Part shown: positions 25,512-46,342 of the stretch, piece after piece
Layout of the letters: every line of letters begins with the position of its first letter
How positions within the stretch are numbered: the first letter of the stretch is position 1
Assembly (NCBI RefSeq): GCF_017939745.1
Contig: NZ_JAGKQQ010000001.1
Span: 3,162,001 to 3,226,000 of the forward strand
Direction: 5' to 3'
DNA length: 64,000 nt
Source of the DNA: Gemmata palustris
GTDB lineage: Bacteria > Planctomycetota > Planctomycetia > Gemmatales > Gemmataceae
Translations under genes and position numbers: made by a program
The notes under the pieces: model-generated
What the model saw: the letters and a program-made list of their open reading frames with translations, nothing else
Databases searched by the model: none
What the model was told of the DNA's origin: nothing

Positions 25512-25555
25512 GAAACGAACGCGGGCCGCCTCAGTGGGCGGCCCGCGTTCGTTTC
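25512..25555 (+). terminator. Terminator-like hairpin after the PEP-CTERM gene
   Basis: Perfect 19-bp arms (25512-25530, 25537-25555) with a 6-base loop, starting 12 bases after the stop codon. It ends GTTCGTTTC without a full U-tract and could act in both directions. Confidence 0.65.
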
Positions 25556-25845: not shown

Positions 25846-25938
25846 TGGGTTCAGCGGGTCGGTGGGGCGCTCTCGCGACCGCTTCGCTCCGCTGGAACCC
25901 GATCCGACACAAACGGTCGCGCGAACGGGAGAGACGAC

Positions 25939-26766
25939 ATGCGATTCACATCCGGCCGGTTGATTGGACCGGCCCTGTTCCTGGTCGCGAGTTTACTGGT
26001 GGTTACCGCGGGCGGGGCCATCGGGCAACCCGGCAAAGACAAGGAGCCGGGCAAGGAGAAAAAGGACAAAGACAAGGGGCCGAAAGGCGGTCCCGAAAAG
26101 GGCACGAAAGAGCTCCGCAAGGCGTTCGACAGTATCACCGATGCCGCCCAGAACGCCCCTTCGGGCCAAGAGGCGGCGCGCCTGCTCGACCACGCGAAGA
26201 ACTTCTACCGCGCGGCGCACCGGGCGCACCCGGACGAGCCGCGCCGGTTCCGCGAACTGGCCCTCGCCGCCACCGACGCGGCGCGCGGGCTCGATCACCT
26301 GCGCCGGGCCTCGTACCAGCCGGTCGCGAATTTACCGGAACCGCCGTTAGATTCTGACGGCCCGCCCGCGCCGAAGGACGGCCCGAAGGCAAAGGGACCG
26401 CCTCCGGCCCCGAAGGACGGCCCGAGGGGGCGCGAGCCGCGGGACGCGGCGAGCGAGAGCGGCCCGTGGGCGCCGGCACTCGACGCGCTGACCGACGTCC
26501 ACAACCAACTCGCGACCGCCGAGCCGCCGGCCAGGGGCGCGGGCCGGGACTTTTTCGAGTCCGCGAAGAGCGCCAACCGCCAGGCCCGCACCGCTTACGA
26601 GGCGGGGGACTACCGCAAGGCGGCCGAACTCGCTCGCGCGGCCGGTGCCTGGCTCCGGGTCAACGAGCACCTCGAACGGGCCGAGTGGGACGGGGCCACC
26701 GCACCCCCACCCGCGCCCGAGCCGAAGGGCAAGGGCGCGCCGCCGCTCCCACCCGCGAAGAACTAA
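25939..26766 (+). CDS. Exported Lys/Pro-rich helical protein
   Basis: 275 residues from the ATG at 25939 (GGGAGAGACGAC before it). Signal peptide (LIGPALFLVASLLVV), a Lys/Asp/Gly-rich linker (about 31-55), a helical segment with repeated Ala/Arg (KNFYRAAHRAHPDEPRRF), a Pro/Lys/Gly linker (about 128-165) and a second helical segment (RQARTAYEAGDYRKAAELAR) that reads like a degenerate TPR. It ends with a second Pro-rich tail. Probably envelope-located; function unknown. It may share a transcript with the next gene, 76 bases on. Confidence 0.65.
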   Translation: MRFTSGRLIGPALFLVASLLVVTAGGAIGQPGKDKEPGKEKKDKDKGPKGGPEKGTKELRKAFDSITDAAQNAPSGQEAARLLDHAKNFYRAAHRAHPDEPRRFRELALAATDAARGLDHLRRASYQPVANLPEPPLDSDGPPAPKDGPKAKGPPPAPKDGPRGREPRDAASESGPWAPALDALTDVHNQLATAEPPARGAGRDFFESAKSANRQARTAYEAGDYRKAAELARAAGAWLRVNEHLERAEWDGATAPPPAPEPKGKGAPPLPPAKN

Positions 26767-26842
26767 ACCGGAACCGCACTACGAGCGCGTCGGACCGTCT
26801 GGCGCGCTCGACCTTACCCGTATTCCCGGAGCAACCCCCACC

Positions 26843-27388
26843 GTGAGCAAGCACCGCCGCAACACTGGATCCGAGTCCCGCACGCTCTCGGGCACGGTCC
26901 GCCAGCACAATTTCAGCCCGAAAGGCGAGATCGAGGGGCTGGTTCTCGAAACCGAGGCCGGCCCGGTCCAGGTGAACTTCCCGCACGGACCGAGGGCCAC
27001 CGAGTTCCCGACGCCCGTGCCCGGTTCGCTGATCCGATTTGTCGTTGGCGCCGATCACCGCGCTGCGGAACACGACCCGGGCGATCACCCCGTGTGCGAG
27101 TTCGTCGCGGACGCGGACGCGGCCCCGGTCCCCGAAGGGGGCCGGCGGCCGGCGACCGCGGGCGTCGTGATCCGTCTGAATTATGCCCGGCACGGCGAGC
27201 CGAACGGTGTCGTCCTCGATACTGGCGATTTCGTTCACCTGAAGCCCCACGGGATGCGCCTCGTCCCGCTTGCCCTCGGCGCCCGTGTCGTGGCCGAAGG
27301 GGCGTCCCGGCCGACGGTCACCGGTCACCGGGTCATTGAGGCGTCCGTTGTCAACGGCGTTGAAGTCGTCCGCGGGGACGCGCACTAA
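26843..27388 (+). CDS. Protein with two copies of a small beta domain
   Basis: 181 residues from a GTG at 26843. It contains an internal duplication: SGTVRQHNFSPKGEIEGLVL with VQVNFP in the first half, and AGVVIRLNYARHGEPNGVVL with VHLKPHG in the second, each about 70-80 residues with a VPGSL or LALGARV turn. The pattern (G.V......G...GLVLETGxxVxxxP) suggests a small OB-like or SH3-like barrel. No family name is certain. Downstream, 128 bases away, is the transporter operon. Confidence 0.6.
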   Translation: MSKHRRNTGSESRTLSGTVRQHNFSPKGEIEGLVLETEAGPVQVNFPHGPRATEFPTPVPGSLIRFVVGADHRAAEHDPGDHPVCEFVADADAAPVPEGGRRPATAGVVIRLNYARHGEPNGVVLDTGDFVHLKPHGMRLVPLALGARVVAEGASRPTVTGHRVIEASVVNGVEVVRGDAH

Positions 27389-27516
27389 CGGGAGCGCGAC
27401 AACACTACAAGGGCCGGACCGTATCGGCCGGCCGCCGGTAACACTGGCGTTCGTTGCGTGTCCAATTCGCTCGGGCTCGCGCGCCGGTGAGCCGTGCAAT
27501 CAATCGGAGCTGACTC

Positions 27517-28734
27517 ATGTCCACCGTCGTGGCCCCCCACCTGACCACCGAGGCCCCGCGGATCGCCCCGCGGGACCGGATCGGGCTGAACGCGGCCAAC
27601 TTCTTCCTGGCCGAACTGACGGGCGTCGTGATCCCGTTCCTGGCGAAGATGCTGGCCGACCGGAGCTGGCGCGACGACGCGATCCAGTACACGGCCGCCG
27701 CGTGCGGGCTGGGCGTGTTCCTCGCGCAAACACCGGCCGGGTTGCTCACAGACCGGTCCCGTAACCGCCGGCTCCTGCTCGCCGGCGCGTCACTCGTCGT
27801 CGGGGCGTGCTTCGGGTTGCTCCCGCTGGCGCCCGACACCGGCTGGCTCATCGGCCTGTTGGTGTTCCTCGGCGGCGTCGGGCAGGCGTTCTTCGTCCCG
27901 CTGCTCGGCGCGCTCGCGCTCGGCCTCGCGGGGCCGGCGGTGCTCCACAAGGTCATGGGCGAGAACCAGGGGTGGAACCACGCGGGCAACATCGCGGCGG
28001 CGTTCACCGCCATGACCGTCGCCGCGTGGCTCGGGCTGCCGGCCGTCTTTTACACCGTCTGCGTCGTGTCCGCGTTCGCCGCCGCGAGCGCCTTCCTGAT
28101 TCGGGGCTCCGATCTGAAAGGGGGACCGGGAACGGTGGTCGAGGCCGGGCCGGGGCTACGGGCACTGTTCCGCGACCGGCGGGTGGTCGTGCTGTTCGCG
28201 GCGGTGGCGCTGTTCCACCTGGCGAACGCGCCGGTCATGCCGCTCGTGGGCCAGTACATCGCCCGCCTGGGTGGGAGCGACACGCAAGTGGCGGCGGTGG
28301 TGCTGGTCGCCCAGGCGGTGATGATCCCGGTCGCCGTGCTGTCCGGGTGGGCGTGCAACCGGTGGGGCCGCAAGCCGGTGCTCGCGATCGGGTTCGTTGC
28401 CCTGCCGGTTCGCATCCTGTTGTACTCGTTCACGTCCGACCCGTGGGTCCTGGTCGCGCTCCAGGTGTTCGACGGGATCGGGGCGGGCGTCTACGGCGTG
28501 GTCGCGACCGTGGTGTGTGCCGATCTGACCCGCACGCGGGGCGGGTTCAACGCGCTCCAGGGGGTGCTCGCGACGGCCTTGGCGGTGGGCGGGGTTCTGG
28601 GGCCGCTCGTGGCCGGCCCGATCGTGCAGCACCTGGGGTTCGCGCCCGCGTTCCGGGCGTTCGCCCTCGTCGCCGCGGTGGGGGCCGGGGTGTTCCTCGC
28701 GCTCATGCCCGAAACCAAGGAGGACGTGTCGTGA
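27517..28734 (+). CDS. MFS transporter (first of a pair)
   Basis: 405 residues with twelve predicted hydrophobic spans. The MFS loop motif after TM2 appears as AGLLTDRSRNRRLLL and the second-half equivalent as GWACNRWGRKPVLAIG. An AENxGW-like VMGENQGWNHAG in TM4-5 and an AGPIVQHLGF near the end fit the drug/metabolite efflux branch, substrate unknown. GGAG precedes the ATG. It opens a six-gene same-strand run and overlaps the next gene by four bases (GTGA). Confidence 0.85.
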   Translation: MSTVVAPHLTTEAPRIAPRDRIGLNAANFFLAELTGVVIPFLAKMLADRSWRDDAIQYTAAACGLGVFLAQTPAGLLTDRSRNRRLLLAGASLVVGACFGLLPLAPDTGWLIGLLVFLGGVGQAFFVPLLGALALGLAGPAVLHKVMGENQGWNHAGNIAAAFTAMTVAAWLGLPAVFYTVCVVSAFAAASAFLIRGSDLKGGPGTVVEAGPGLRALFRDRRVVVLFAAVALFHLANAPVMPLVGQYIARLGGSDTQVAAVVLVAQAVMIPVAVLSGWACNRWGRKPVLAIGFVALPVRILLYSFTSDPWVLVALQVFDGIGAGVYGVVATVVCADLTRTRGGFNALQGVLATALAVGGVLGPLVAGPIVQHLGFAPAFRAFALVAAVGAGVFLALMPETKEDVS

Positions 28735-29993
28735 CGCGCGCCGCGATCGAACCGCCCCCGACTCCACCTCCCGCGCCGCGGGCCCGCGCGGCCCTGCACG
28801 GGGCGTACTTCCTGGGGATGACGGGGATCGGGTTCTGTTTGCCGTACCTGCCACTGTACTTGAAAGAGGAGAAGGGGTTCTCCGACCGGGGCATCGCGCT
28901 CGTGTGGGTGCTCGCCGCGGTCGCGGGGCTGGTGCAGTTCCCGGTCGGGGTGTGGTCGGACCGCGCGGGCGTGCGCAAGCCGTTCCTGGTGACCGGGCTC
29001 GCGGCCCTGGCGCTCGCGACCGCGCTGCTGCCCCTCGCCGACCCCGCGGGCGCGTGGGGCGCGGTACTGGTCGGGGCGCTCGTCGTGTTGTTCGCGGAGA
29101 ACGGGCCGTGCCGCGCGACGGTCGAGAGCATGGCCGGTGCGGAGGCCACGCGCCTCGCGCCCCCGGGCGGGGTCGGTGCGGCACTGGGGGCCTTACGGTT
29201 CTGGCGCCCGGTCGCGGTCGTTCTGACCGCACTGGTGGGCGGGGCCGTGGCCGAGGAGCGCGGGGTCGGGTGGCTCCTCGGCCCGCTCGCGGTGGTGCAG
29301 GGGCTGGCGGTCGGCGCCGCGCTCCTCATCCGCGAGCGCGGCCCGCCCCCGCCGCTCGGCCCGGGCGCCGGTGGGCCCCCGCACCGGGACGGGCGGTACC
29401 TGAAGGACCCGGGGTTGTGGGCCTTCATCGCGGCAATGGTTCTGTTCCACGTCGCCAACGCCCCACCCGGTGCGTACCTCGGGCTGTTCCTCAAGAACGA
29501 CCTCGGGGCACCGGCCCGTGACCTGTCTTACGCGTTCGTCGTGAGCATGGTGGCGTGGAGCGCGTGCGTGCGCCCGGTCGGGTGGCTGTCCGACCGGCTC
29601 GGGCGCAAGCCCCTGCTGGTCGCCGGGTGGGTGGCGATGACGGTCCGGCTCGGGCTCCTCGCACTGGCCCGCGAGGGCTGGCAGGTGCTGCTCGTTCAGG
29701 TGCTCGACGGCCTGGCCCAGGGCCTGTTCGCGGTGGCCGCGGCCGCGTGGGTGACGGACCGGCTCGGCGGCCCGCGCCGGGCGGGCGCGGCCCAGGTGCT
29801 GGTGGGGAGCGCGCTGGTGCTCGGGTCCGCGATCGGGCCGGCGCTCGCCGGGCTGGTGGTCACGGACCTCGGCTACCGGGGCGTGTTCGGCCTCCTCGCG
29901 GGCGTGGGCGCCGGTGCGACGCTCGTTGTGATCTGCGCCGTCCCCGGGGGGCCGGCCCCGGCGCCGACCGAGGAGGGGACACGTGACTCCTGA
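28731..29993 (+). CDS. MFS transporter (second of a pair)
   Basis: 420 residues from the GTG overlapping the previous stop, with AAGGAGGACG in the right place. Twelve hydrophobic spans. Loop motifs GVWSDRAGVRKPFLVTG and GWLSDRLGRKPLLVAGW mark the two halves. It resembles the first transporter in motif layout but is clearly diverged, so the two could work as a pair or heterodimer. It overlaps the next gene by 11 bases. Confidence 0.85.
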   Translation: MTRAAIEPPPTPPPAPRARAALHGAYFLGMTGIGFCLPYLPLYLKEEKGFSDRGIALVWVLAAVAGLVQFPVGVWSDRAGVRKPFLVTGLAALALATALLPLADPAGAWGAVLVGALVVLFAENGPCRATVESMAGAEATRLAPPGGVGAALGALRFWRPVAVVLTALVGGAVAEERGVGWLLGPLAVVQGLAVGAALLIRERGPPPPLGPGAGGPPHRDGRYLKDPGLWAFIAAMVLFHVANAPPGAYLGLFLKNDLGAPARDLSYAFVVSMVAWSACVRPVGWLSDRLGRKPLLVAGWVAMTVRLGLLALAREGWQVLLVQVLDGLAQGLFAVAAAAWVTDRLGGPRRAGAAQVLVGSALVLGSAIGPALAGLVVTDLGYRGVFGLLAGVGAGATLVVICAVPGGPAPAPTEEGTRDS

Positions 29994-31041
29994 CGCGCCC
30001 GTAACGGTTATGATCCCCGGCGACCTGCACCTCACGGACCCCGGGCAACCGAACTACGCCGCCGCGCTTCGCGCCGTTGGGGACGCGAACGAACTGGTCC
30101 GCCCCGATTTCGTTCAGTTCATCGGGGACAACGTGCAGGACGGGTCCGACGAGCAGTTCGCCCTCTTCGGTTCCCTGTGCGCGCGGTTGCGCGTGCCGTG
30201 GTTCGCGCTCGTCGGCGACCACGATGCCCCGGGCGACCCGGCGGCCCGCCAATTCCGGGAACGGGTCGGTGCCCCGTGCGGGGCGGTCGCGATCCGCGGG
30301 TTCCGGTTCCTGCGCTTGAACACTCAGGAGGCGCGGCCGGTCGGACTGTCTCCCGGCCAGATCGCGTGGTTCCGGTCGGAGGTCGATGCCGCGCGCGCGG
30401 CGGGCGAACGGGTGGTGGTGTTTCAGCACAATTATCCGTACCAGATCTGGGAAGACTTCGCCGGCCCGGGTACCGACGCCTGGCGCGAGATCGTGCAGAC
30501 GCGCCGGGTCCACGCCCTCCTGTGCGGCCACACGCACTACTGGCAGCTCGCCAACGACGGGCGCAACGTGCTCGCCGCGGTGCGCTCGATCGGTGACCCG
30601 GAGGGCGGGGCGCCCGGGTACGCGGTCGCGGTCTTCCACGGCGAGGATTTTGCGCTCACGTACCGCCCGGTCGCGGAGCGCGGGCCGCTGGTCCTCGTGA
30701 CGCACCCGCGTGAGATGCTGCTCGCGACCGGGCCGGATCACGTCGTGACCGGGGCCGACGAGGTCCGGGTGCGGGTGTGGGCGGGAGCGCCGGTCGGTGC
30801 GGTCGAATTGTGCCTGAACGGTGACACGCGGGTACCGATGGACCCGTGCGGGGACGGGTTTTGGCGGGCGCCCCTGCCCGGCGCGCGCCTGGCGAAGGGC
30901 GCCCACCGGCTCGCGGTGCGGGCCGAGGACGCGACCGGTGCCGTCGGCGGGCACGAGATCGAGTTCGCGGTCGATCCCACCGGGCGCTACACCGCCGTGC
31001 CGATGGTCCGGCCCCTGGTAACTTCAACGGCCTTTTGCTGA
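29983..31041 (+). CDS. Calcineurin-like metallophosphoesterase
   Basis: 352 residues from a GTG overlapping the MFS stop (AGGAGGGGACAC before it). All five metal motifs are present in order: GDLHLTD, FIGDNVQDG, GDHD, a His in FQHNYPYQ, and GHTHYW. Such enzymes cleave phosphomonoesters or diesters with a dinuclear metal centre. No signal peptide, so it is likely cytoplasmic. The last 100 residues are a beta-sandwich (VRVRVWAGAPVGAVELCLNG) typical of purple-acid or lipoprotein-like phosphoesterases. Substrate unknown. Confidence 0.85.
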   Translation: MTPDAPVTVMIPGDLHLTDPGQPNYAAALRAVGDANELVRPDFVQFIGDNVQDGSDEQFALFGSLCARLRVPWFALVGDHDAPGDPAARQFRERVGAPCGAVAIRGFRFLRLNTQEARPVGLSPGQIAWFRSEVDAARAAGERVVVFQHNYPYQIWEDFAGPGTDAWREIVQTRRVHALLCGHTHYWQLANDGRNVLAAVRSIGDPEGGAPGYAVAVFHGEDFALTYRPVAERGPLVLVTHPREMLLATGPDHVVTGADEVRVRVWAGAPVGAVELCLNGDTRVPMDPCGDGFWRAPLPGARLAKGAHRLAVRAEDATGAVGGHEIEFAVDPTGRYTAVPMVRPLVTSTAFC

Positions 31042-31053
31042 ACGGGAGAACTC

Positions 31054-32310
31054 GTGTCGGGAACAACTGCCCTGTGGTTGACGCTGTTCTGGTTCGGGCT
31101 GACCTACCTGGGGCTGGCCCTGGGCCGGCTCCCGGGGTTGCGCACCGACCGCGCCGGGGTCTCGCTGGTGGGTGCCGCGGGCGTTCTCGCGTGCGGCCTC
31201 CTGTCGTTCGAGGACGCGGTGCGGGCGGTCGATTTCGCCACGATCGCGCTCCTCCTGGGGATGATGGTGGTCGTCGCGTTCCTGCGGCGGGCCGGGTTCT
31301 TCGCGCGGCTCGCGGGGCTCGCGCTAGGGCGCGTGAAGTCGCCGAAGGCGTTGCTTGCCGTGACCATGCTGATGTCCGGGGCGCTCTCCGCGCTCCTGGT
31401 GAACGATGTGGTGTGCCTGGCGCTCACGCCACTGGTGTTGCACCTCACGCGGCGCCTCGGACTGGACCCGCGCCCGCACCTGGTGGGGCTCGCGGTGGCG
31501 AGTAACCTCGGCTCGGCCGCGACGCTCACCGGGAACCCGCAGAACATGATTATCGGGGGGCTGTCGGGGATCTCGTACCTGCGGTTCGCTGCCAAACTCG
31601 CTCCTCCGGCGCTCATTTGTTTGGCGATTGGCTACGTTGTCACGCTGATCGCCTATCGGACGGCTTTGAAGGGAAGTGCGCAACCGGGCGCGGCACCGAA
31701 CGGCAACGGTGACCGCGTGCCCGACGGGGCGCGGCACACCGCGCTGCTCGCGAAGAGTTTGCTCGTCACGGGCGCGGCGGTCGGGCTGTTCTTCGCCGGG
31801 GTGCCGATGGCCGTTGTCGCGCTCGGGGCCGCGGCCGTGTTGCTGCTCGATCGCGTGAACCCCGCGAAGGTGTACGCGCACATCGACTGGAGCCTGCTCC
31901 TCATGTTTGCCGGGCTGTTCGTTGTGGTACGGGCCTTCGAGGTTCACGTGCTCGCGGCGAGTGGGGTGGGCGAGTGGGCGGGCCGGGCCGATCCGGTGTG
32001 GGCGCTCTCCGGGCTCTCGGCGGTCCTGTCGAACGTGGTCTCGAACGTCCCGGCCGTGCTCCTGTTCAAGCCGGTCGTGGGGGCCATGCCGGACGCGGCG
32101 CGCGAGACCGCGTGGCTGGCCCTGGCCCTGTCCAGCACGTTCGCGGGGAACCTGACTGTCTTGGGCTCGGTGGCGAACCTGATCGTGGTCGAACAGGCGC
32201 GGAAGGAGGGCGTGACGATCGGGTTCTGGGATTACTGCCGGGTCGGTATCCCGGTCACGCTGATTACGCTCGTGGTCGGGGCCGCGTGGCTCGCCCTCGT
32301 CCGGTATTGA
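31054..32310 (+). CDS. ArsB/SLC13-type ion transporter permease
   Basis: 418 residues, about eleven hydrophobic spans. VNDVVCLALTPLVLHL and SNLGSAATLTGNPQNMIIGG are the two helix-break signatures of the ArsB/NhaD (ion transporter) superfamily, and the second half repeats SNVVSNVPAVLLF and STFAGNLTVLGSVANLIVVE. Members move arsenite, sodium, dicarboxylate or sulfate; sequence alone does not decide. GTG start with CGGGAGAACTC before it, 12 bases after the phosphoesterase. Confidence 0.8.
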   Translation: MSGTTALWLTLFWFGLTYLGLALGRLPGLRTDRAGVSLVGAAGVLACGLLSFEDAVRAVDFATIALLLGMMVVVAFLRRAGFFARLAGLALGRVKSPKALLAVTMLMSGALSALLVNDVVCLALTPLVLHLTRRLGLDPRPHLVGLAVASNLGSAATLTGNPQNMIIGGLSGISYLRFAAKLAPPALICLAIGYVVTLIAYRTALKGSAQPGAAPNGNGDRVPDGARHTALLAKSLLVTGAAVGLFFAGVPMAVVALGAAAVLLLDRVNPAKVYAHIDWSLLLMFAGLFVVVRAFEVHVLAASGVGEWAGRADPVWALSGLSAVLSNVVSNVPAVLLFKPVVGAMPDAARETAWLALALSSTFAGNLTVLGSVANLIVVEQARKEGVTIGFWDYCRVGIPVTLITLVVGAAWLALVRY

Positions 32311-32378
32311 GGAACGGGCTACTCTGAGATGGACGCGGGCGAGCACGTTCGACTTTGGGAATTCTGTACGAGGGCAAA

Positions 32379-33868
32379 ATGGGTTGGGCGCGGGTCACCG
32401 TGGTGGTCGTGGTGTTCGCAGTGTCGCTCGCGGCACTCGCGGCCAGCAGCGCGCTGGCGCTCTGGGGGGGCGCGGACGAGCTCGCGGCCCGTGACCAGCT
32501 CCGGGCCGCGGCCACCGAACTGGGGGCCGCGGCCCGTGGACCCGTACACGAGTTGCCGACGGACGACGCGGGCAGCGTGGTACCGGAACCGGACACCCGC
32601 CGGCTCACCGAGATCGCGCGGCGGGTGCTGACGAACTACCCCGGTACGGAGGGCGGGTTCTACTTCGTGCGCTCGGACCAGTTCGCCGGGACCGTGGTGA
32701 GCGGTGCGGGGCCGGAGCCGCCCGTTACCGATCGAAAAGGTGCCGAGAAGACGGGCCACGAGCCGAAGGCGGATCAGAAGAAGGGCGGCAAGAAAGACGG
32801 TGACAAGAAGGGGGGCACCCGGCCGGACGCCCCCGGCGCCCCCGTCCGGCGCGACCCCCCGCCATTGGAAGCGCCGTCGATCCGGCAACAGTGCCGCGAG
32901 GTCGCGGGCACCGAACCCGGTTGGCCGCCGGTCGTGGAGGTCCGGGACGTGGGGCCGAGCCGGGTCGCGGTCGCGGCGCTGGCCGTGGGGGACGAGCGCC
33001 CCGCCCGGGCGGCGGTGTGGGTCATGGTGCGGCTCACCGGCCCGGAGCAACAGAAGGCCCGCCTCGCCCGGCTCCAGGCGGCGACGGGGCTCTCGCTCGG
33101 GGGCGTGGTCCTGGCCCTGGGGCTGACCGGCGGGCTCGCCGCGTCGCTCCGGCGCGAGGCCCGGCGCCGGGCCGCCCTCGGGGACGAGTTGCGGAAGGCC
33201 GAGCACCTCGCGATCTTGGGGCGGTTACTCGCGGGCGTGGCTCACGAGGTGCGCACGCCCCTCACCGCGATCCGCTCCACCGTACAACTCTGGGAACGGC
33301 TCCCCGCCCAGGCCCGCACGCCGGAATCGCTCGCGGCCGTCGTCGGCTCCGTCGATCGGTTGAACGAACTGGTCGGCCGGCTGCTCCTGTTCGCCCGGGC
33401 CGGGCACGAGAGCTACCGGTCCGTGGGCTTCAACGCGGTGACCGCCGAGGTGCTCGAGCTCGTCCGCGCCCGCGCGGACGCTCAGGGCGTGACGATCGAA
33501 GCCGATCTCGCCCCGGACCTGCCCCCGGTCCCCGGCGCGGCGCAGGCGATCGGCCAAGTGGTCCTGAACCTCGTCACCAACGCGCTCCAGGCCATGCCGG
33601 GCGGCGGGCGGTTGACGTGCCGCACGCGCGCGGCCCGGGGGCGCGTGGAACTGGCCGTCAGCGACACCGGGCCGGGCGTCGCGCCGGACGCCCGGGACCG
33701 CGTCTTCGAGCCGTTCTTTACCACCCGTTCGGACGGCACCGGTCTGGGGCTGGCACTGTGCCGCGAGGTCGCCCGGCAGCACGGCGGCGACGTGGCACTC
33801 GACCCCGCGGGCGGCCCCGGCGCGACCTTTCGCTTCACCCTCCCCGTGACCGTGGGAGGGCCCCCCGC

Positions 33869-33872
<4 letters not shown>
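32379..33872 (+). CDS. Membrane sensor histidine kinase
   Basis: 497 residues from the ATG at 32379 (GAGGGCAAA before it). TM1 is about 4-26, the external sensor region about 27-230, TM2 about 237-255. The H-box is [12 protein letters not shown] (His290), followed by [16 protein letters not shown] and [18 protein letters not shown]. The sensor region holds an extreme Lys/Asp/Gly stretch (about 119-148) that is unlikely to fold alone. The kinase is of the NtrB/AtoS type, matching the adjacent NtrC-type partner with which it overlaps by four bases. Confidence 0.9.
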
Positions 33873-35266
<1,394 letters not shown>

Positions 35267-35286
35267 CCGGAGCGGCACGGCACGGG

Positions 35287-38181: not shown

Positions 38182-38352
38182 TCCGGCCCCTAAACAGTAC
38201 CTCCCGCGATCCAAGTAAACGGGGCGGCACGAAACAGTGTCCGACACGGCGCGCGAACCGAAAGGGCCGGGGCCGCGGATTTGAAGGCGTTACTATAGGG
38301 TGCGGCTCGCGTTCCTTCGATACATTCGGAATCGCACTTTCGGGTAGTGGCT

Positions 38353-38781
38353 CTACTGATGGCACAGGTTATAGAGTCGTATAAAGTACCAGCGCGCTCC
38401 GAGATGGTTCCTGGGGCACTTGGAGAATGTGAGTGTCTTACGAACGAATCGGGCACATCGTTGACGTAAGGTGAGCCCGACGCGCTCGATGTGTGCCGTG
38501 CGGCCCGTGTCCTGGCCCACGGCCCGGTGCCGGACCCGTGGGATCGCTTGGCGGTACGAGGCGAGGACGTCGGTGCATACGGTGACCCGGGTCCGGTACC
38601 CACGGGGCAATGCGGCCCAGAGCCGTTGAGCTGTTGCGGCGGACCAGTCGCCGACGACCATTGCCCGCACCCGCCGTGTGCCGGCATCCCGGGCCACCCA
38701 GACCCCATGCACGTCGCCCTTGGAACCGACGGAGCTCCCCATCTCGTCGGCTTCGATCACTACGGCCCCGGCCTTTTGGGG
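38353..38781 (-). CDS. insB: IS1-type transposase InsB' part, made by -1 frameshift
   Basis: The frame encodes EADEMGSSVGSKGDVHGVWV, then VTVCTDVLASYRQAIP and HIERVGLTLRQRCARFVRK with TLTFSK: the DDE catalytic core and C-terminus of IS1 transposases. Its frame is -1 relative to InsA. The full transposase would be made when ribosomes slip at the C5A4 run at 38774-38782 (read on the minus strand as CCCCCAAAA). No stop interrupts the fused product, so the element may be active. Confidence 0.75.
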   Translation of the reverse strand, partial: PQKAGAVVIEADEMGSSVGSKGDVHGVWVARDAGTRRVRAMVVGDWSAATAQRLWAALPRGYRTRVTVCTDVLASYRQAIPRVRHRAVGQDTGRTAHIERVGLTLRQRCARFVRKTLTFSKCPRNHLGARWYFIRLYNLCHQ

Positions 38782-39092
38782 GACGGTCCGGGGTGGTGTG
38801 GAGCGCCCTCTCGGTACACCGCGTTGACGAACCCTTGGACCCAGGACCGGGACCGACCGGTGATCCGGGCGATGGCCCGGACCCCGACCCGCTCGCCCAG
38901 CAACCGGCGCACCCGCGCCCGGTCCGATTCGCCCACCGGACCCTTCTTCGGGGCGGCCACGAACCGCCGATGGCACCCCGGGCACCGGAACACCGGGGTA
39001 CCCGACGCATTGGACCCGTTCCGCACCACGTGGTCCCCCGAGCACCGGGGGCAGGGTGGGATCGGCGGCGGATTCGGTACCGATGTGTTCAT
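38760..39092 (-). CDS. insA: IS1-type InsA protein
   Basis: 110 residues. N-terminal zinc ribbon (CPRCSGDHVVRNG, RCPGCHRRFV) and a helix-turn-helix (GVRAIARITGRSRSWVQ) match InsA of IS1, which binds the ends and represses. It stops at TAG (38760) just after the slip site. Confidence 0.8.
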   Translation of the reverse strand: MNTSVPNPPPIPPCPRCSGDHVVRNGSNASGTPVFRCPGCHRRFVAAPKKGPVGESDRARVRRLLGERVGVRAIARITGRSRSWVQGFVNAVYREGAPHHPGPSPKRPGP

Positions 39093-39261: not shown

Positions 39262-39657
39262 TCACAGGCGCGCCAGGAGTTCCTTGACCTTCCGCTCGAT
39301 CAGGTCGCGGACTTCGCGGTATTGATCGGGCGGCATCTCCTTCGGGTCGGGGATCTGCCACTCCTCCCGCCGCTGCGCCCGGACCAGCGGGCATTCGTCC
39401 CCGCACCCCATCGTGACCGCCACCTCGACCTCCTGGCCGTTGAACTGGTCGAGCGACTTCGATGTATGCGTCGCCAGGTCGTAGCCGACCTCCTTCATGT
39501 ACTCGACGGCTCGGGGGTTCACCCGTCCGGAAGGCCGTGAGCCGGAACTCGCCGCCTCGACCCCCTGGCCGGCGTGCATCCGCGCGAACGCCTCGGCCAT
39601 CTGGCTCCGGTTCGAGTTCTCGACGCAGACGAACAGGACGAGCTTCGTCGGACTCAT
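39262..39657 (-). CDS. arsC: Arsenate reductase, low-molecular-weight phosphatase type
   Basis: 131 residues from MSPTKLVLF (ATG at 39657, CGGAGAG before it). The P-loop CVENSNRS (Cys11, Arg17) fits CX5RS, and IPDPKEM near the end holds the general-acid Asp. Cys85 and Cys89 (TMGCGDECP) are candidates for the resolving cysteines of the thioredoxin-coupled branch. It reduces arsenate to arsenite in the cytoplasm. It is the last gene of the ars operon, 32 bases after the DUF6428-like gene. Confidence 0.9.
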   Translation of the reverse strand: MSPTKLVLFVCVENSNRSQMAEAFARMHAGQGVEAASSGSRPSGRVNPRAVEYMKEVGYDLATHTSKSLDQFNGQEVEVAVTMGCGDECPLVRAQRREEWQIPDPKEMPPDQYREVRDLIERKVKELLARL

Positions 39658-39689
39658 GCGACCACTCTCCGAGTGAGGGTTCCGGGGAC

Positions 39690-40145
39690 TCAACAACAAC
39701 CGGGTGTCGTGCAGCAGGCCGTTTCTCCCGCGCCGACGCCACAGCGATCCTGGGCCAAGCACGCCGTGTGCTTGGTGCCAAGGTGTAGCAGAACGCCGGA
39801 CGGCGTGACCTCGGCATCTGCCACCGGGAACTGCGACACCGCCCCGTTCTCGTACTCGACCTCGACCGGCAGATCGGTGGCCTTCAGCAGCGGGGCGGCG
39901 AGCCGCATGATGTGGGCCAGTTTCGTCGTGTCGAGCCGGTGGTCAGTGTCGTCGGCCACCCACACCTGCAACACGCACGCCGTCGCAGAGCGGGTCGTGC
40001 CGCCGCAGTCGATGAAGTCCTTGTGGACCCGCCCGACCTCGGTGACGTGGTAGTGCGCGGGGACGAACGAGCCGTCCGGCAACATCAGGTGCAGTGCCGC
40101 CGCCGGGTTCTCATTCAGAGCGCGGACGAAGTCGTCGAGAATCAT
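39690..40145 (-). CDS. DUF6428-like protein of the arsenic operon
   Basis: 151 residues from the ATG at 40145 (GGAG upstream; an ATG 12 bases earlier is weaker). Begins ILDDFVRALNENPAAALHLM, then FVPAHYHVTEVGRVHKDFID and LQVWVADDTDHRLDT. The assignment to DUF6428, a small family that travels with ars genes, is from memory. The C-terminus is Cys-rich (CLAQDRCGV, ACCTTPGCC) with two vicinal pairs, which suits As(III) binding. Possible chaperone or accessory role, inferred from context. Confidence 0.65.
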   Translation of the reverse strand: MILDDFVRALNENPAAALHLMLPDGSFVPAHYHVTEVGRVHKDFIDCGGTTRSATACVLQVWVADDTDHRLDTTKLAHIMRLAAPLLKATDLPVEVEYENGAVSQFPVADAEVTPSGVLLHLGTKHTACLAQDRCGVGAGETACCTTPGCC

Positions 40146-40169
40146 GATCGGCTCCATCAAAGATACGGT

Positions 40170-40844
40170 TCATTCCTTCGCGCCATCGGGCCGGCAACAC
40201 TCGCCGGGGCCGTGGATCGCGCCGCAGACGACCACCCCGGCCAGCGCCCCGGCCACGGGTGCGGTCAGGTACAGCCAGAGGTGATCGAGCCGCCCGGCGA
40301 CGACGGCCGGGGCGAGCGACCGGGCCGGGTTCATCGACGCCCCCGACACCGGCCCGGCGAACATCGCCTCCAAAGCGATGACCGCCCCGACCGCCACACC
40401 AGCCAGGATGCCCTTCTCCTTCGATCCGGTGGATACGCTCAGGATCACGACCATGAGCATCAGGGTCAGCACGAACTCCATCACCCAGGACTGGAGGGCG
40501 GTGCCGGCGGGCAGGGTCGCCCCGAGCGACGGGTGCGCCGGGAACATGGCCCGCAATACGAGGCTGGCGAGGACGGCCCCGGCGCACTGGGCGAGGATGT
40601 ACGGCACCACCCGCGGCCACTCGAAGCGGCGGGCGGCGAAGAAGCCGAGCGTGACGGCGGGGTTCAGGTGGCAGCCGGACACGTCGCCGACCGTGTAGAT
40701 CATCGCCAGCACGACCATGCCGAATGTGAGGGCCACCCCGACGTGGGTGACGACCCCGCCGTGGAGGTCGTTGACGACGACCGCGCCGGTCCCGGCGAAC
40801 ACCAGACAGAAGGTACCGAACGCCTCGGCGACGAGCTTACGCAT
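40170..40844 (-). CDS. aqpS: Aquaporin/MIP channel of the ars operon (AqpS-like)
   Basis: 224 residues, six membrane helices. The two NPA motifs are HLNPAVT and SMNPARS. The position between arsR and arsC with no arsB or acr3 is the arrangement known from Sinorhizobium meliloti, where AqpS lets arsenite leave by diffusion after ArsC makes it. The C-terminal tail is GECCRPDG. It overlaps arsR by eight bases, so translation is probably coupled. Confidence 0.85.
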   Translation of the reverse strand: MRKLVAEAFGTFCLVFAGTGAVVVNDLHGGVVTHVGVALTFGMVVLAMIYTVGDVSGCHLNPAVTLGFFAARRFEWPRVVPYILAQCAGAVLASLVLRAMFPAHPSLGATLPAGTALQSWVMEFVLTLMLMVVILSVSTGSKEKGILAGVAVGAVIALEAMFAGPVSGASMNPARSLAPAVVAGRLDHLWLYLTAPVAGALAGVVVCGAIHGPGECCRPDGAKE

Positions 40845-41250
40845 CGGTTCCGTCCCCGCAGCACCGGGCCGCCCGGTCGGTCAGCGGGGCGCGGTCCCCG
40901 GCCTCCTCCATCAGGCACCAGCCCTGTTCGAGCAGCCCCTGGACGCAGCGATCCACCAGCCGGTAGTGGATGCTGTTCCCGTCGCGGCGGGACGCCAGGA
41001 TGCCCAAGTCGGAAAGTCGCTGGAGTTGGTTCGACACGGCCTGGGCCTTCATGCCGAGCGAAGTGGCGAGGTCGGTGACGCACAGTTCGTCGGCCCGCAC
41101 CAGGGCGTGCAGGAGCCTTAACCGGGTGTCGTTTGCCAGCACCTTGAAGACCGCCGCCAAGCCCCCGGCCTGGATAGGCGACATGAGCGAGCGCTCCTTC
41201 AGCGGGGGCTGTTCGCAGCAGTCGTTCACGGGACGTTTCGGTCGGTTCAT
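40837..41250 (-). CDS. arsR: ArsR-family repressor
   Basis: 137 residues from the ATG at 41250 (GGAGGT, eight bases before; an ATG six bases further up is too close). The winged helix is LRLLHALVRADELCVTDLAT with QAVSNQLQRLSDLGI. Classical ArsR uses ELCVCDL; here only one Cys remains in that helix (ELCVTDL), while CC pairs occur at both ends (NDCCEQPP, AARCCGDG), so the metal site is probably the relocated type. It should bind the palindrome just upstream and release it with As(III). Confidence 0.85.
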   Translation of the reverse strand: MNRPKRPVNDCCEQPPLKERSLMSPIQAGGLAAVFKVLANDTRLRLLHALVRADELCVTDLATSLGMKAQAVSNQLQRLSDLGILASRRDGNSIHYRLVDRCVQGLLEQGWCLMEEAGDRAPLTDRAARCCGDGTDA

Positions 41251-41264
41251 GGGCATTACCTCCG

Positions 41265-41298
41265 CTTCACAATTACACTACCAAGTGTAATTGTGAAG
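41265..41298 (-). promoter_or_regulatory. ArsR operator
   Basis: Perfect 14-bp inverted repeat CTTCACAATTACAC / GTGTAATTGTGAAG with a 6-base spacer, two bases upstream of the arsR ribosome site. AT-rich against its surroundings. It is placed to block transcription of the whole operon. Confidence 0.85.
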
Positions 41299-41510
41299 TC
41301 AACAGAGACATCCGCCTCTGCTGCGACGACTTGAGGTGGCGAGTTCGTGATGGAGCAGGGCGAGGTGCTATCGAGGCTGGTCGAGGTGGCCGAGTTTCGG
41401 ACGGGGAGGAGGCAGAGGGCCATTTCTCCGTCGGCCACATCCGCCCGGAAGGAGCGGCCCATTACCCTTTTCAAGCCCCAGACCACCCCGTTTTGGCGGC
41501 ATTCAACGGC

Positions 41511-41546
41511 AAAGGCGACCTGTCACCTCGGTGACAGGTCGCCTTT
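41511..41546 (-). terminator. Hairpin after the selenocysteine tRNA
   Basis: Perfect 17-bp arms (41511-41527, 41530-41546), lying 43 bases beyond the tRNA 3' end on the minus strand. The stem ends GCCTTTG, only a short T-run. It is placed to end the tRNA transcript. Confidence 0.6.
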
Positions 41547-41589
41547 GAAAACCGACGTGAAATGCTGCAATTTAAGGCTTTTATAGAAG

Positions 41590-41684
41590 CGGGAGTGTAT
41601 GGAAATCGAATCCACTGAACCCTCTATTCAAGGGTCCCACAGGTTTTGAAGACCTGGGCCGACACCAGTCGTGCAAACACTCCC
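41590..41684 (-). tRNA. selC: Selenocysteine tRNA, anticodon UCA
   Basis: 95 bases. Acceptor stem is 8 bp (GGGAGTGT with ACACTCCC), T stem 5 bp (GTGGA/TCCAT) with loop TTCGATT, giving the 8+5 arrangement of bacterial tRNA-Sec. Anticodon arm CAGGT-CTTCAAA-ACCTG has UCA, which reads UGA. The extra arm is long (ACCCT/AGGGT). Discriminator base is G; CCA is not encoded. The D arm has a bulge. No selA, selB or selD is in the window. Confidence 0.9.
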
Positions 41685-42007: not shown

Positions 42008-44149
42008 CTAAGCGGGCGTGGTACCGGTCACCGACAGCCAGTGCGGAATCGACCGCGCGGAGCGCGCATTGCCCTCCAACACCCACTCCGTGCCGACCAA
42101 TTGGAACCCGTGGTCCGGGTACATCGACCGGCACGGCTGGTTGTGAGCGGTTTCGTGGAACGCCCCACGGATCACTGCCGCCCCGTTCGCGGGGGTGATC
42201 CGAACGGTGTCAATTATCGCGTTGAGCATCGCCGTCTCAAAGGCGTATCCGAACACGCGACAACTGAGGACGAAGATCGGGATTCGCGCCGCCGCGTCCA
42301 ACTCCACGACGGCCACGCAAACCAGGCCCATAGCGCCGAAATTGTCCGCCCCCTCTGCGACCAGGACTTTCGCCCGCGGCGAACTGCCCCAACCTTCGAT
42401 CTCGCGGAAGCTCGTCCGACTGCCGGCGAGGTTGAACTGGTTCGTTCGGTTGACGAGCTCGACGACGCGCTTGTAATCCGCCCGCCCCGCTTCGCGTATC
42501 GTCACCCTCAGACCGAGCTTGGCGAACATGGCGCCCGGGTCGACGTCCGGCACCGTCGTGGAAAGGAACTGCTCGCGCAGGTCCTTCTCGCGGTACTGCT
42601 GGGTCCGATCGAGTTCCTCCTGCTCCGCCAGGAGATCGGCCCAGAGCTCTAACAGGCGCCAGGTGCGATCCGAGGTCGCGTCCATACCGAGGATCTCGGG
42701 CATCGAATCCGCCACGAGCGCGAGCTGGTCGGCGCGGTCGTCAATGAACACGTAGTCCTTGAACTTGAGGTTCAGGGCCGCTCGGATGCGGTCCATGTTC
42801 GTGGCCTTGTGGTCCCAGTTGATCTGCTGGTTCACGAAGTCCCCTTCCGACAGGACCGCGCCGCGCCAGTGGACCCTGGCGGCGTCGTTCTTCGAGTTGA
42901 CGGCGAGCACCACGCCCTTCTCGCGGAGCCGCTTCAGGAGCCGCTGCCGGTCGGCGTAGTGCTCCACCGCGCCCTCCCCGATCTCCCCCCGCCAGAGCGT
43001 GTTGTCCAGATCGCACACCACGAGCTTGCGGCCGAACAGGTGGGCGCGAACGAAGAGGAAATCGCGGTACGCGCGCGCGAGGTGCTTGCCGAGCACCGCG
43101 GGGTGCTGGAGGTCCGAGTTGTAGAACAGGCGGCCCAGTTCGACGTCCCCGTGTTGCGCCAGGATCGGTTCCTCGTCCAGGATGAAGAGGTGCGGGAACG
43201 TGGCCGCGTTCCGTGCGGCGACGTAAGCCTGTAGCCGCGTGTTCACGATCCGTCGCGCGCCGCGCCGCACGCGCCTCGTTAGGAGCCCCTTCACCCGATC
43301 GAGCGCGCCGCCCTCGTGCCGCCGAACGCCGGCCGAGTTGTGGACGACGATCGGGCACTCGAAGAGCGCGCTCAGGTCGTTGAGGTCGGATTCGGTCTGC
43401 TTGGCCGCGTCCTCCGCGATCCGCCGGACTTCCTCGGCCGGAGTCAGGGCCCGCCGCCACTGGCTGAGGCTGCCGTACTCGGCGCAAAATTCGTAGGTGT
43501 AAGGGCTGAAGAACACGATGTCGAACGTCCGCGTTGCGACCGCGCGCAGCTCCTCGCGCCGCTTGAACGGGTTCTTCGACGTGACGAACGTGGCGTCGAC
43601 GGTGACCCCGTCTTCGGCCGCGGGCGCCGTCAGGAACGCAACGACGTCAAGGTGAACGCAGTCCCCGACGAACAAGACGCTCAGGTGCCGGGCGGCCCGG
43701 GCCGTCACCACGGCGCGGATGTCCGCAAGGGTCGCGTCGAGGAGCGCGAGCGCGGGCGCGTCGACCAGGTTGGCCAGGCCCGACCGGAGCGCCGCGGCGT
43801 CGGCGTCGAGGACGCGGCCCGTGAGCGCCGCCCGGGCGTCGGGTGCCAGGCGCGCGTCGTACAACTGCTTCCGCTTTTCGCCGATGTAGAGGTACTTGTA
43901 ATCCACGCTCCCGGTCTCGAAGTAGAGCTTCAGGTAGTCGACGAACACGAGTAACTCGCGCCGGACGAACGCCTCAATTTCGCCCTCACCTCCCGCCACC
44001 GAACCGGCGAACTTGTCCCAACCGTCGAACAGTTGCGGCACCAGCGACCGGGCGAGCGGCTCCTTCCGTTTGCCGAGAGCTGTTGCCAGCGCCCGCGCCG
44101 CCTGGCGCGCACCGGCCCCCGATGCAGCCGGCTCCGGTAAGCCCGTCAT
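42008..44149 (-). CDS. FkbH-like HAD-IIIC protein
   Basis: 713 residues (GAGGAGCGATT before the ATG). The N-terminal half (to about 380) has an SGNH-like fold with LSVLFVGDCVHLDV and FSPYTYEF. The HAD-IIIC domain starts at VVCDLDNTLWRGEIGE with the nucleophile Asp, followed by LAVNSKND and YVFIDDRADQ. A GNAT-like end (RADYKRVVELVNRTNQFNL) follows. FkbH proteins load a glyceryl unit from 1,3-bisphosphoglycerate onto an acyl carrier protein for polyketides, but in many bacteria they occur alone, as here, with no carrier protein or synthase near. Confidence 0.8.
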   Translation of the reverse strand: MTGLPEPAASGAGARQAARALATALGKRKEPLARSLVPQLFDGWDKFAGSVAGGEGEIEAFVRRELLVFVDYLKLYFETGSVDYKYLYIGEKRKQLYDARLAPDARAALTGRVLDADAAALRSGLANLVDAPALALLDATLADIRAVVTARAARHLSVLFVGDCVHLDVVAFLTAPAAEDGVTVDATFVTSKNPFKRREELRAVATRTFDIVFFSPYTYEFCAEYGSLSQWRRALTPAEEVRRIAEDAAKQTESDLNDLSALFECPIVVHNSAGVRRHEGGALDRVKGLLTRRVRRGARRIVNTRLQAYVAARNAATFPHLFILDEEPILAQHGDVELGRLFYNSDLQHPAVLGKHLARAYRDFLFVRAHLFGRKLVVCDLDNTLWRGEIGEGAVEHYADRQRLLKRLREKGVVLAVNSKNDAARVHWRGAVLSEGDFVNQQINWDHKATNMDRIRAALNLKFKDYVFIDDRADQLALVADSMPEILGMDATSDRTWRLLELWADLLAEQEELDRTQQYREKDLREQFLSTTVPDVDPGAMFAKLGLRVTIREAGRADYKRVVELVNRTNQFNLAGSRTSFREIEGWGSSPRAKVLVAEGADNFGAMGLVCVAVVELDAAARIPIFVLSCRVFGYAFETAMLNAIIDTVRITPANGAAVIRGAFHETAHNQPCRSMYPDHGFQLVGTEWVLEGNARSARSIPHWLSVTGTTPA

Positions 44150-44629
44150 AATCGCTCCTCGTCTCTAAAAACCGCCCGCCCGACCGAGCATGGCGTGCGG
44201 CTCCACGCGGTTCCGTGGGGCCGGGGTATCGTGTTGATGATCTTACGTGTGGCGGCGGGCAGGAGGAAGCACCGCGAGGGGCAAAGAGCCGATACCACGG
44301 GCCTAAACTGGACACGGTGCGCACGAGCCACGTGCCGCAATAGGGGCACCAGAACGGCCGCGGCACTCGAAGCGACCCGTCCACGTTGGCGCAGGTCGTA
44401 GCGTTGGAGCGGCGCGTGGCCGCGTGGCGGCACCACCGGGAGCCCGTCGACCGCCCCTCCTCGGTCTTGATCCGCGGCTCTGCGCTCGGTCTGCTTTCTG
44501 GCGCGGCCCCGCGCGGAACGGTTTCGACCCGGGGCGAGCCGCCCGCGCAGAAAAAACTTGTCCTCCCGCCGCGCCGGGCGGACATTACATCACATCAGGG
44601 ACGATTCCCCCACCGACGAAGGGTCACGG
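44150..44629. other. Gene-free stretch of 480 bp
   Basis: Lies between divergent genes, so it should contain both promoters. I see no clear -35/-10 pair and no credible gene; the reverse frames are low in coding pattern. Confidence 0.4.
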
Positions 44630-46342
44630 ATGGCCGCACTCCTCCCCCTCCTCCGACGCGCCGGGCGCGCCGAAGTTCCCGTTCCCGACGCCGAGTTGCT
44701 CGACCGGTTCGGCCGCGCGCGCGACGAGTCCGCGTTCACCGAACTGGTCCGGCGCCACGGCCCGGTCGTCTATCGCATCTGCCGGCGCTTGGTGGGCACC
44801 GCCGGCGCCGACGATGCGTTCCAGGCCACGTTCCTGGTTCTCGCCACGCGGTTCAGCGCAGCGCGGGCGTCCGGCGCGCTGGGCGGGTGGCTCGCGGGCG
44901 TGGCCGGTCGGGTCGCGCGCCAGATGCGCCGCGGGACCGGGCGCCGGGCGCGTCACGAATCGGCCGCGGCGCGCGGGCCTTCCACGGAAGGAGAAGAACG
45001 GTCCGTGGACCTCGCGGACCAGTTCCGGGTGCTCGACGAGGAACTGACGCGCCTCCCGGACGCTCTGCGCGGGCCGGTGGTGCTGTGCCTGCTTCAAGGC
45101 CATACACAGGAACAAGCCGCCGCCGAGTTGGGGCGGGACGCCCGCACCCTGCGCCGGCGCCTGGAGCGCGCAAAGCGCGTGCTGCGCGAGCGCCTGGAGC
45201 GCCGCGGAGTGGTGCCCGCGGTGGCCGCCGCGCTGGTGGCCGGGATGGGCGAAGTGGCCGCGGTGGTTCCGCACGAACTGGGTTCGCGTACCGTGGCACT
45301 CGTGTTCGATTTCCTGACCGGGGGGTGCGCGGCGTCTGCCACGGCCCCGGTCGCCCTCGCGAAAGGATTAGCGATGACGATGTTCGCACGGAAGCTCATG
45401 TTGGGCGCGGTCGCGGCGACGCTCGGGCTGGTCGGCCTCGGGGCGGTGATGGCCGACGGCGGACCGCCCGCCCCGGCACCGGCCACACTACTCGCAGTCG
45501 CGCCGCCTGCGAAGGAGCCCGCGCCGCTCGTGATGGCCGCGCCCACGCAATCGGACTTCGGTTGGGATCGCCAAGTGGCTGTGACAAAGAAGGCGCTGGC
45601 CTTGCTAAGGGCCGACCCGAAGACCGAGCCGTCGGTTCTGATCCAGGCGGTGTGCGTCCGCGTGCCGACCGGGTTCTGTGACCGGGTCGGGTTGATAAAC
45701 GAGAGCGCTCAGGGGGCGGGGTACGATGTCCACGCGCTCACCCCGCGCGAGACGCGAATGTTCACCGCGCTGCTCCGCGCGGAACCGAACCGCGAAGTGC
45801 TGACCCGACCCCAGATGCTCATTGCGGATAAGAAGACCGGTTCCTGTCAGATTAACCAGAATCTGGACATGGTGACCGAGGTGCGGACCACAACCGAGGG
45901 CCAGAACAAGGTCTACACGGCGAAGACGGTACCGATCGAGAGGGGATTTAAGATGCAGGTCACCCCGGCGATTGTCCCCAACGGGTTCGTACACCTGCAG
46001 ATCGAAGCGCGGTACACCGACTTGGTGAACGGGGTGCCGGCACAGGTTGTCAACGAGGAATCGATCAAATCCTCGGCGCTCCTCCCGGACAGTGGAACGC
46101 TCGTGATCCGTAGCGTGGTCCGGGCGGCCACCCCGCAGAAGGTGGCGACGGCCGCGTTCCCGTTTCCTCTTACGGAAATTCGCGAGAACAACCCGTCGCA
46201 CGAACTGCTGTGGGTACTGACGTCCCACGTCGTCCGCGTGCCCGAAAAGGGGAAGGGACCGCAGCCGGCCCCGACGACACCCGCACCGGTCGCACTCCCT
46301 CCGGCCGCGCCGATTCTGGTCGAGCCGCCGGCGCGCCAGTGA
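44630..46342 (+). CDS. ECF sigma factor fused to a membrane-anchored secretin-like domain
   Basis: 570 residues from the ATG at 44630. Sigma region 2 (ELVRRHGPVVYRICRRLVG, ADDAFQATFLVLATRF) and region 4 (RLPDALRGPVVLCLLQGHTQ) end near residue 185. A conserved linker (190-245) leads to one membrane helix (about 257-275). The outer part from about 390 reads VLTRPQMLIADKKTGSCQIN and later FKMQVTPAIVPNGFVHLQIE, the pattern of the beta domain of type II/III secretin proteins (GspD/PilQ). A Pro-rich tail follows. The sigma core is very close to the LRR fusion at 53855, so these two are recent paralogs. Confidence 0.85.
   Translation: MAALLPLLRRAGRAEVPVPDAELLDRFGRARDESAFTELVRRHGPVVYRICRRLVGTAGADDAFQATFLVLATRFSAARASGALGGWLAGVAGRVARQMRRGTGRRARHESAAARGPSTEGEERSVDLADQFRVLDEELTRLPDALRGPVVLCLLQGHTQEQAAAELGRDARTLRRRLERAKRVLRERLERRGVVPAVAAALVAGMGEVAAVVPHELGSRTVALVFDFLTGGCAASATAPVALAKGLAMTMFARKLMLGAVAATLGLVGLGAVMADGGPPAPAPATLLAVAPPAKEPAPLVMAAPTQSDFGWDRQVAVTKKALALLRADPKTEPSVLIQAVCVRVPTGFCDRVGLINESAQGAGYDVHALTPRETRMFTALLRAEPNREVLTRPQMLIADKKTGSCQINQNLDMVTEVRTTTEGQNKVYTAKTVPIERGFKMQVTPAIVPNGFVHLQIEARYTDLVNGVPAQVVNEESIKSSALLPDSGTLVIRSVVRAATPQKVATAAFPFPLTEIRENNPSHELLWVLTSHVVRVPEKGKGPQPAPTTPAPVALPPAAPILVEPPARQ

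Follow-up and report, generated by a model that had tools for sequence, protein, structure and literature searches.

A selenocysteine tRNA gene beside an arsenic operon in Gemmata palustris, with genome-wide evidence for UGA decoding

The locus

The window, by which is meant the whole 64,000-nucleotide stretch of the Gemmata palustris genome that was analysed, carries a gene for the selenocysteine tRNA (tRNA-Sec) and, on the same strand, an arsenic operon whose first gene starts 333 bases beyond it. The features of the locus, in window coordinates, are these:

42008..44149, minus strand: FkbH-like HAD-IIIC protein, upstream of tRNA-Sec on the same strand (TIGR01686, 172.1 bits, cut-off 146.65; no Pfam match)
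41590..41684, minus strand: tRNA-Sec gene (selC), UCA anticodon, G73 at 41590, CCA not encoded (ARAGORN, RF01852, fold, covariation)
41510..41547, no strand assigned: perfect 17-bp hairpin with a loop of 4, separating tRNA-Sec from the arsenic operon (inverted-repeat search, folds)
41265..41298, no strand assigned: perfect inverted repeat of 15 bp, just 5' of arsR (inverted-repeat search)
40837..41256, minus strand: ArsR/SmtB-family metalloregulator, start at 41256 (PF01022, 34.8 bits; NF033788, 83.7 bits, cut-off 55)
40170..40844, minus strand: MIP-family channel (PF00230, 176.8 bits)
39690..40160, minus strand: DUF6428 protein (PF20001, 150.1 bits)
39262..39762, minus strand: LMWPc/arsenate-reductase-like protein with Cys, not selenocysteine (PF01451, 77.4 bits)

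The tRNA was recognized by two programs. ARAGORN called one tRNA in the window, a tRNA-SeC at 41589-41684 on the minus strand with anticodon tca, and Rfam returned one match there, to RF01852, at 41591-41684 on the minus strand (67.6 bits, E 1.2e-11, model positions 1-91 of 91), which lies over the gathering score of 47. The gene is 95 bases long once the discriminator G73 is counted, and its minimum-free-energy fold, at -43.1 kcal/mol (z -4.47), has the cloverleaf shape expected, with none of 200 shuffles folding as low. Here, the eight acceptor and five T pairs make a 13-bp stack in which all 13 pairs are formed, the variable arm is long, and the D-stem has 6 bp closed by a 4-base loop, plus one insertion relative to the Rfam consensus. 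An earlier note on this DNA had described a 95-base tRNA-Sec with the 8+5 arrangement, a long extra arm and a UCA anticodon, and had proposed a covariance-model check; the description is borne out on every point, and the strand, which had been left unstated, is minus.

In the genome as a whole (9,228,281 bases, 3 contigs, 99.1% complete), the gene lies at C1:3203591-3203684 and is the only one of 12 RF01852 matches to exceed the cut-off. Seven of the other 11 were run through ARAGORN, which called five tRNA-Ser, one tRNA-Trp and one tRNA-Glu, the last two sitting in a tRNA cluster. The window gene thus shares with the bacterial tRNA-Sec of RF01852 the 8+5 stack, the D-stem and its 4-base loop, the long variable arm, UCA, G73 and a single copy over the cut-off, and differs from it in minor ways: an extra D-stem base, common to the aligned copies of the family, and a CCA end that is not encoded. 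Overall, it is a real, single-copy and ordinary bacterial tRNA-Sec that is very probably functional. A literature search over titles and the starts of abstracts did not find the tRNA-Sec of this genome named.

The arsenic operon reported in the earlier note as a neighbour is also real, and its four products were identified as listed above. The LMWPc protein satisfies the LMWPc Pfam model, and its best NCBIfam match, to the arsenate-reductase equivalog TIGR02689 (89.4 bits), falls below the cut-off of 157.6; its translation probably begins at an inner ATG. The 17-bp hairpin stands out in folds of 41500-41556 (z -7.25 on the minus and -8.82 on the plus strand). It was unflagged by a simple terminator scan and has no T-run outside the stem, and we read it as a terminator or insulator. 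The 15-bp inverted repeat, from its position, is a probable ArsR operator.

Several further observations were made in the surroundings. An IS1-type transposase adjoins the operon at 38190-39092 on the minus strand (PF03400 on the frame 38353-39045), in overlapping frames that are possibly frameshifted; it may explain the arrival of the arsenic block. A CitMHS-type transporter at 31042-32300 on the plus strand, which also matches ArsB (40 bits, cut-off 22.2), follows right behind a phosphoesterase frame; in a related genome, G043, the transporter is kept and the phosphoesterase frame is largely missing. On the other side of the tRNA, at 44558-46342 on the plus strand, an ECF sigma factor (residues 59-213) and a secretin-type domain (406-517) are encoded in a single frame, which is an unusual pairing. 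Long perfect inverted repeats were seen at 25512-25555 of the window (19-bp arms) and at 16966-17025 of locus L081 (26-bp arms).

Conservation of the tRNA structure

The window gene was aligned, gap-free, with the 30 best-scoring tRNA-Sec loci of the family (L017-L046), which gave 30 distinct sequences among the 31. The structure scored comprised stems of 8 bp (acceptor), 6 bp (D, with the extra base at column 13), 5 bp (anticodon) and 5 bp (T), together with a variable arm of 7 bp. Standard pairs fill 99.1% of the 930 base-pair cells of the distinct sequences, and double-sided changes occur at 19 of the 31 pairs. The covariation score is 0.408, compared with 0.127 for shuffled alignments (0 of 500 as high), and pairing drops to 43-58% when partners are slid; these figures are to be read with the choice of best-scoring loci biasing the set toward good structure, with kinship inflating the shuffle control and with relatedness retained in the slid controls. 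Of the 30 distinct sequences, 24 form the eighth acceptor pair and every one forms the T-stem; the UCA anticodon and G73 are identical in 31/31 copies.

The D-stem of the aligned copies has six pairs, with 98.9% of cells paired, and one extra base. This base, at column 13, is present in all 31 genes, as A in 26, T in 2 and G in 3; in L045, by eye, the extra base is better placed at column 14. SelA contacts the D-arm of tRNA-Sec. It is conceivable, and in our estimate rather unlikely, that the extra base marks a lineage form of the tRNA whose D-arm would be read by a co-adapted SelA.

The selenocysteine machinery in this genome and its family

The earlier note had taken the tRNA to imply that UGA is read as selenocysteine in this organism, and had called for a genome search for the partner genes. 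All three were found over their curated cut-offs:

C1:4836568-4837917: selA (TIGR00474, 546.6 bits)
C1:1309904-1311976: selB (TIGR00475, 365.4 bits as joined pieces)
C1:110106-111023: selD (TIGR00476, 390.1 bits)

These coordinates lie far from the tRNA, so that the four genes are dispersed along the chromosome. Together with the in-frame UGA gene described below, they make it very probable that this organism reads UGA as selenocysteine. A full gene set for selenocysteine insertion has already been published for a relative, Gemmata obscuriglobus, in which, going by an excerpt of that source, selA, selB, selD and tRNA-Sec are likewise all present (PMC4807772). Relative to that excerpt, the present analysis differs in giving coordinates, a likely target gene and the scattered arrangement of the genes.

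Among 61 family genomes, selA was matched in 53, selB over its cut-off in 51, selD over its cut-off in 53 and tRNA-Sec over its cut-off in 52, the tRNA search having used stricter filters by which weak matches are lost. Strong tRNA matches, of at least 63.6 bits, occur in 48 of the 61, this genome included, and span 63.6-78.9 bits; the window gene ranks 44th. Four further genomes have matches of only 49-54 bits and may lack tRNA-Sec, because four matches of 50-51 bits in a search of the genus proved by ARAGORN to be three tRNA-Ser and one tRNA-Trp. Two near-complete genomes, G010 and G012, gave no tRNA-Sec, no selA and no selB or selD over the cut-off. The fit between the genes is imperfect: a strong tRNA-Sec goes without a selA match in G039, G045 and G055, and in G017 selB and selD occur without tRNA-Sec and selA.

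A likely selenoprotein gene

A target for the machinery was sought among genes with an in-frame UGA. In a PF00578 search of nine genus genomes, the matches listed included one AhpC/TSA-like gene of this genome that has one TGA in frame, and its counterpart in four relatives; the matches listed are a lower bound, and more UGA genes of that family may exist. The gene is:

C1:6992556-6993065: SelL-related redox protein, likely a selenoprotein (NF040769, 201.9 bits, cut-off 120)

Its one in-frame UGA lies within a U-I-P-C (U-x-x-C) motif. The genes of the four relatives share 64-82% identity with it, and their frames run on beyond the TGA to an ordinary end. SelL proper is a U-x-x-U protein, unlike the U-x-x-C protein found here. 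In its score and its motif, the protein agrees with the SelL-related redox family (NF040769) and with the Prx-like UxxC selenoproteins described in the portion of PMC9312934 consulted. Its closest named relatives are four records, from a Planctomycetota bacterium, a Singulisphaera sp., a Planctomycetia bacterium and a Gemmata sp., found in a scan of named genomes with two patterns, one of which has Cys codons and is unable to match UGA forms; a search of the PDB gave no relatives at E 0.01.

Across the 61 family genomes, NF040769 has 39 matches in 37 genomes, of which 35 contain one TGA and four contain none. The UGA column was read in 30 of the 39 and holds UGA in 29 and Cys in one. The 29 UGA genes were examined for a hairpin 3' of the UGA, which in the copy of this genome is CACCTC-GGC-GAGGTG, with all 6 pairs formed and a GGC loop. 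Summed across the 29, 150 of 174 pairs are formed, compared with 121.6 +/- 3.9 (maximum 134) in 1000 synonymous-codon shuffles, and 145 compared with 105.8 +/- 4.7 when only Watson-Crick pairs are counted, shared ancestry being uncorrected in both comparisons. All six pairs are present in 18 genes, five in 4, and four or fewer in 7. Taken alone, the hairpin of this genome is not significant (151 of 1000 codon shuffles pair equally well; folding z -0.2), the five genus copies having folding z values of -0.2 to -1.9, and the Cys form, in G052, retains the hairpin. Published constraints for a bacterial SECIS, as given in an excerpt of PMC13188914, are a stem of 4-16 bp, a loop of 3-9 nt and a G in the first two loop positions, and the hairpin fits them. 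The search for an in-frame UGA followed by a SECIS-like hairpin, which had been suggested as a check, has turned up a gene of the kind expected, and it is likely a selenoprotein gene.

Distribution of the UGA form and of the tRNA agree incompletely. A strong tRNA-Sec match is missing in seven of the 34 genomes with the UGA form (G002, G031, G035, G046, G048, G054 and G058), and in G058 the selA match is missing as well. All seven are drafts of at least 190 contigs; G031, G046 and G054 are nonetheless >90% complete. As a separate observation, five loci in G065 and G062 (L086-L090) hold more AhpC/TSA-like genes in which the frame contains one or two TGAs, placed by eye at Cys-like sites, and selenoprotein sets therefore seem to differ between species; in G062, which has such genes, the tRNA-Sec match is absent.

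Other UGA candidates were followed up and rejected. A coding-potential scan of the window, of a kind that would miss short or atypical genes, gave three in-frame TGA candidates, each at a junction of two genes: 40172 between the MIP and DUF6428 genes, 50119 between two tandem similar genes, and 31039 between the phosphoesterase and the CitMHS transporter, where the TGA is absent in G043. As far as tested, it thus holds that the window has no selA, selB, selD or in-frame UGA gene, as had been claimed, the sel genes being matched elsewhere. In 20-kb stretches around selA, selB and selD, one UGA candidate was found, near selA, and by eye it spans the boundary between two successive genes. DUF6428 was considered because three matches in relatives contain one TGA; this TGA is the normal end of the gene and is replaced by TAA in several others, a reading that covered 12 of the 15 matches, with the second copy of this genome (listed with one TAA) outside the 12. 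SelD carries an in-frame UGA in many relatives, unlike the SelD of this genome, which was rejected as a selenoprotein. A selenocysteine formate dehydrogenase was not found in this genome, where the best FdhA-like match (549.7 bits, cut-off 666.25) has no in-frame stop. With neither of these two carrying a UGA, one target gene is known here.

The arsenic neighbourhood in relatives

The earlier note had remarked that the neighbouring operon handles arsenic, a selenium antagonist. Arsenic proteins were looked for with tblastn around tRNA-Sec in relatives, over up to 1.5 kb on either side in the family loci and over 10-40 kb in wider contexts (one side only in G016). Besides this genome, 16 members of the genus have a strong tRNA-Sec, and 14 of them, all except G069 and G074, were viewed. 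Arsenic proteins were found beside the tRNA in 0 of 30 family loci, 0 of 7 wider contexts and 0 of 12 genus contexts (G043 belongs to both of the last sets). Counting this one, 12 of 19 genus genomes have DUF6428, used as a marker of the operon; in G043, G067, G073 and G075, the marker shares a contig with tRNA-Sec at a distance of at least 0.59 Mb. G043 has a stretch matching 25931-35270 of the window, with tRNA-Sec following about 190 bases on in the opposite orientation, and at this place lacks the kinase, the IS1-type transposase and the arsenic block. Among the genomes examined, the adjacency was seen only in this one, and the operon genes contain no in-frame UGA. The functional meaning hinted at for the neighbourhood is consequently unsupported, and on this comparison of sequences the operon looks like a chance neighbour.

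Arsenic enzymes that use selenocysteine do exist. Selenocysteine forms of arsenite methyltransferase and of arsenate reductase are known families according to excerpts of PMC9312934 and PMC13188914, the arsenite methyltransferase with a UxxG motif being described in the latter. Four ArsM-like genes with one TGA (L134-L137) occur in 3 of the 19 genus genomes: G065 has two, G071 and G073 a single one each. When they were aligned with two ArsM proteins of the Cys type, the TGA fell on the ArsM Cys, with SD-U-IAGA in one of these genes facing YIG-C-VAGA. In G073 and in one of the G065 copies, the TGA frames extend into a long hydrophobic C-terminal domain. In the genome studied here, ArsM (NF008823, E 1e-20) and ArsS (E 1e-30) gave no match.

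Interpretation

The explanation in which we place high confidence is that the window holds a functional, single-copy bacterial tRNA-Sec serving selenocysteine insertion, with the arsenic operon as an unrelated neighbour. Judging from the protein families involved, the transcript would be charged with serine, SelA would convert it to selenocysteinyl-tRNA using selenophosphate from SelD, and SelB would deliver this to UGA codons that precede a bacterial SECIS hairpin. There is at least one likely target, the SelL-related redox protein with its U-x-x-C motif. The arsenic operon would have been brought beside the tRNA by genome rearrangement and would be regulated on its own.

A different view would make the tRNA and the operon one functional unit that ties selenium use to arsenic defence, and the 333-base spacing on one strand, the known selenocysteine families of arsenic enzymes (PMC9312934 and PMC13188914, in the excerpts referred to above) and the four ArsM-like genes of the genus speak for it. 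We regard it as very improbable, since the arsenic genes were not found beside tRNA-Sec at 30/30 family loci and in 7/7 and 12/12 wider contexts, the ArsC-like protein of the window has Cys and no UGA candidate in the arsenic genes survived, and ArsM and ArsS, at E 1e-20 and 1e-30, are unmatched in the genome. In addition, a strong hairpin and an operator-like repeat separate the two, and G043 passes from the matching stretch to tRNA-Sec without the kinase, the transposase and the arsenic block.

It is similarly very improbable that the tRNA is decayed or cryptic, in a lineage that has lost selenocysteine decoding. Such decay would agree with a score below that of most strong copies in the family, with a SelD that lacks the UGA found in many relatives and with the missing selenocysteine FdhA; against it, all five helices of the gene are intact, the changes in its variable arm preserve pairing, and the genome has selA, selB, selD and a conserved UGA gene. 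Least probable of all is a false call, with tRNA-Ser or a further tRNA of the long-variable-arm type taken for tRNA-Sec. The tRNA-Ser genes of this and the other genus genomes do score 38.9-51.1 bits on RF01852, some of them over 47, and it is the 67.6 bits, the 8-bp acceptor stem, the 6-bp D-stem with a 4-base loop and the UCA anticodon, in a family where 48/61 genomes (this one included) have a match of at least 63.6 bits, that tell against this reading.

For the biology of the genus, a link between selenium and arsenic does appear in other species, as the selenocysteine form of an ArsM-like methyltransferase. For the family, these results add genome-wide evidence that these planctomycetes read UGA as selenocysteine, and gene callers that treat UGA solely as a stop would therefore cut its selenoproteins short.
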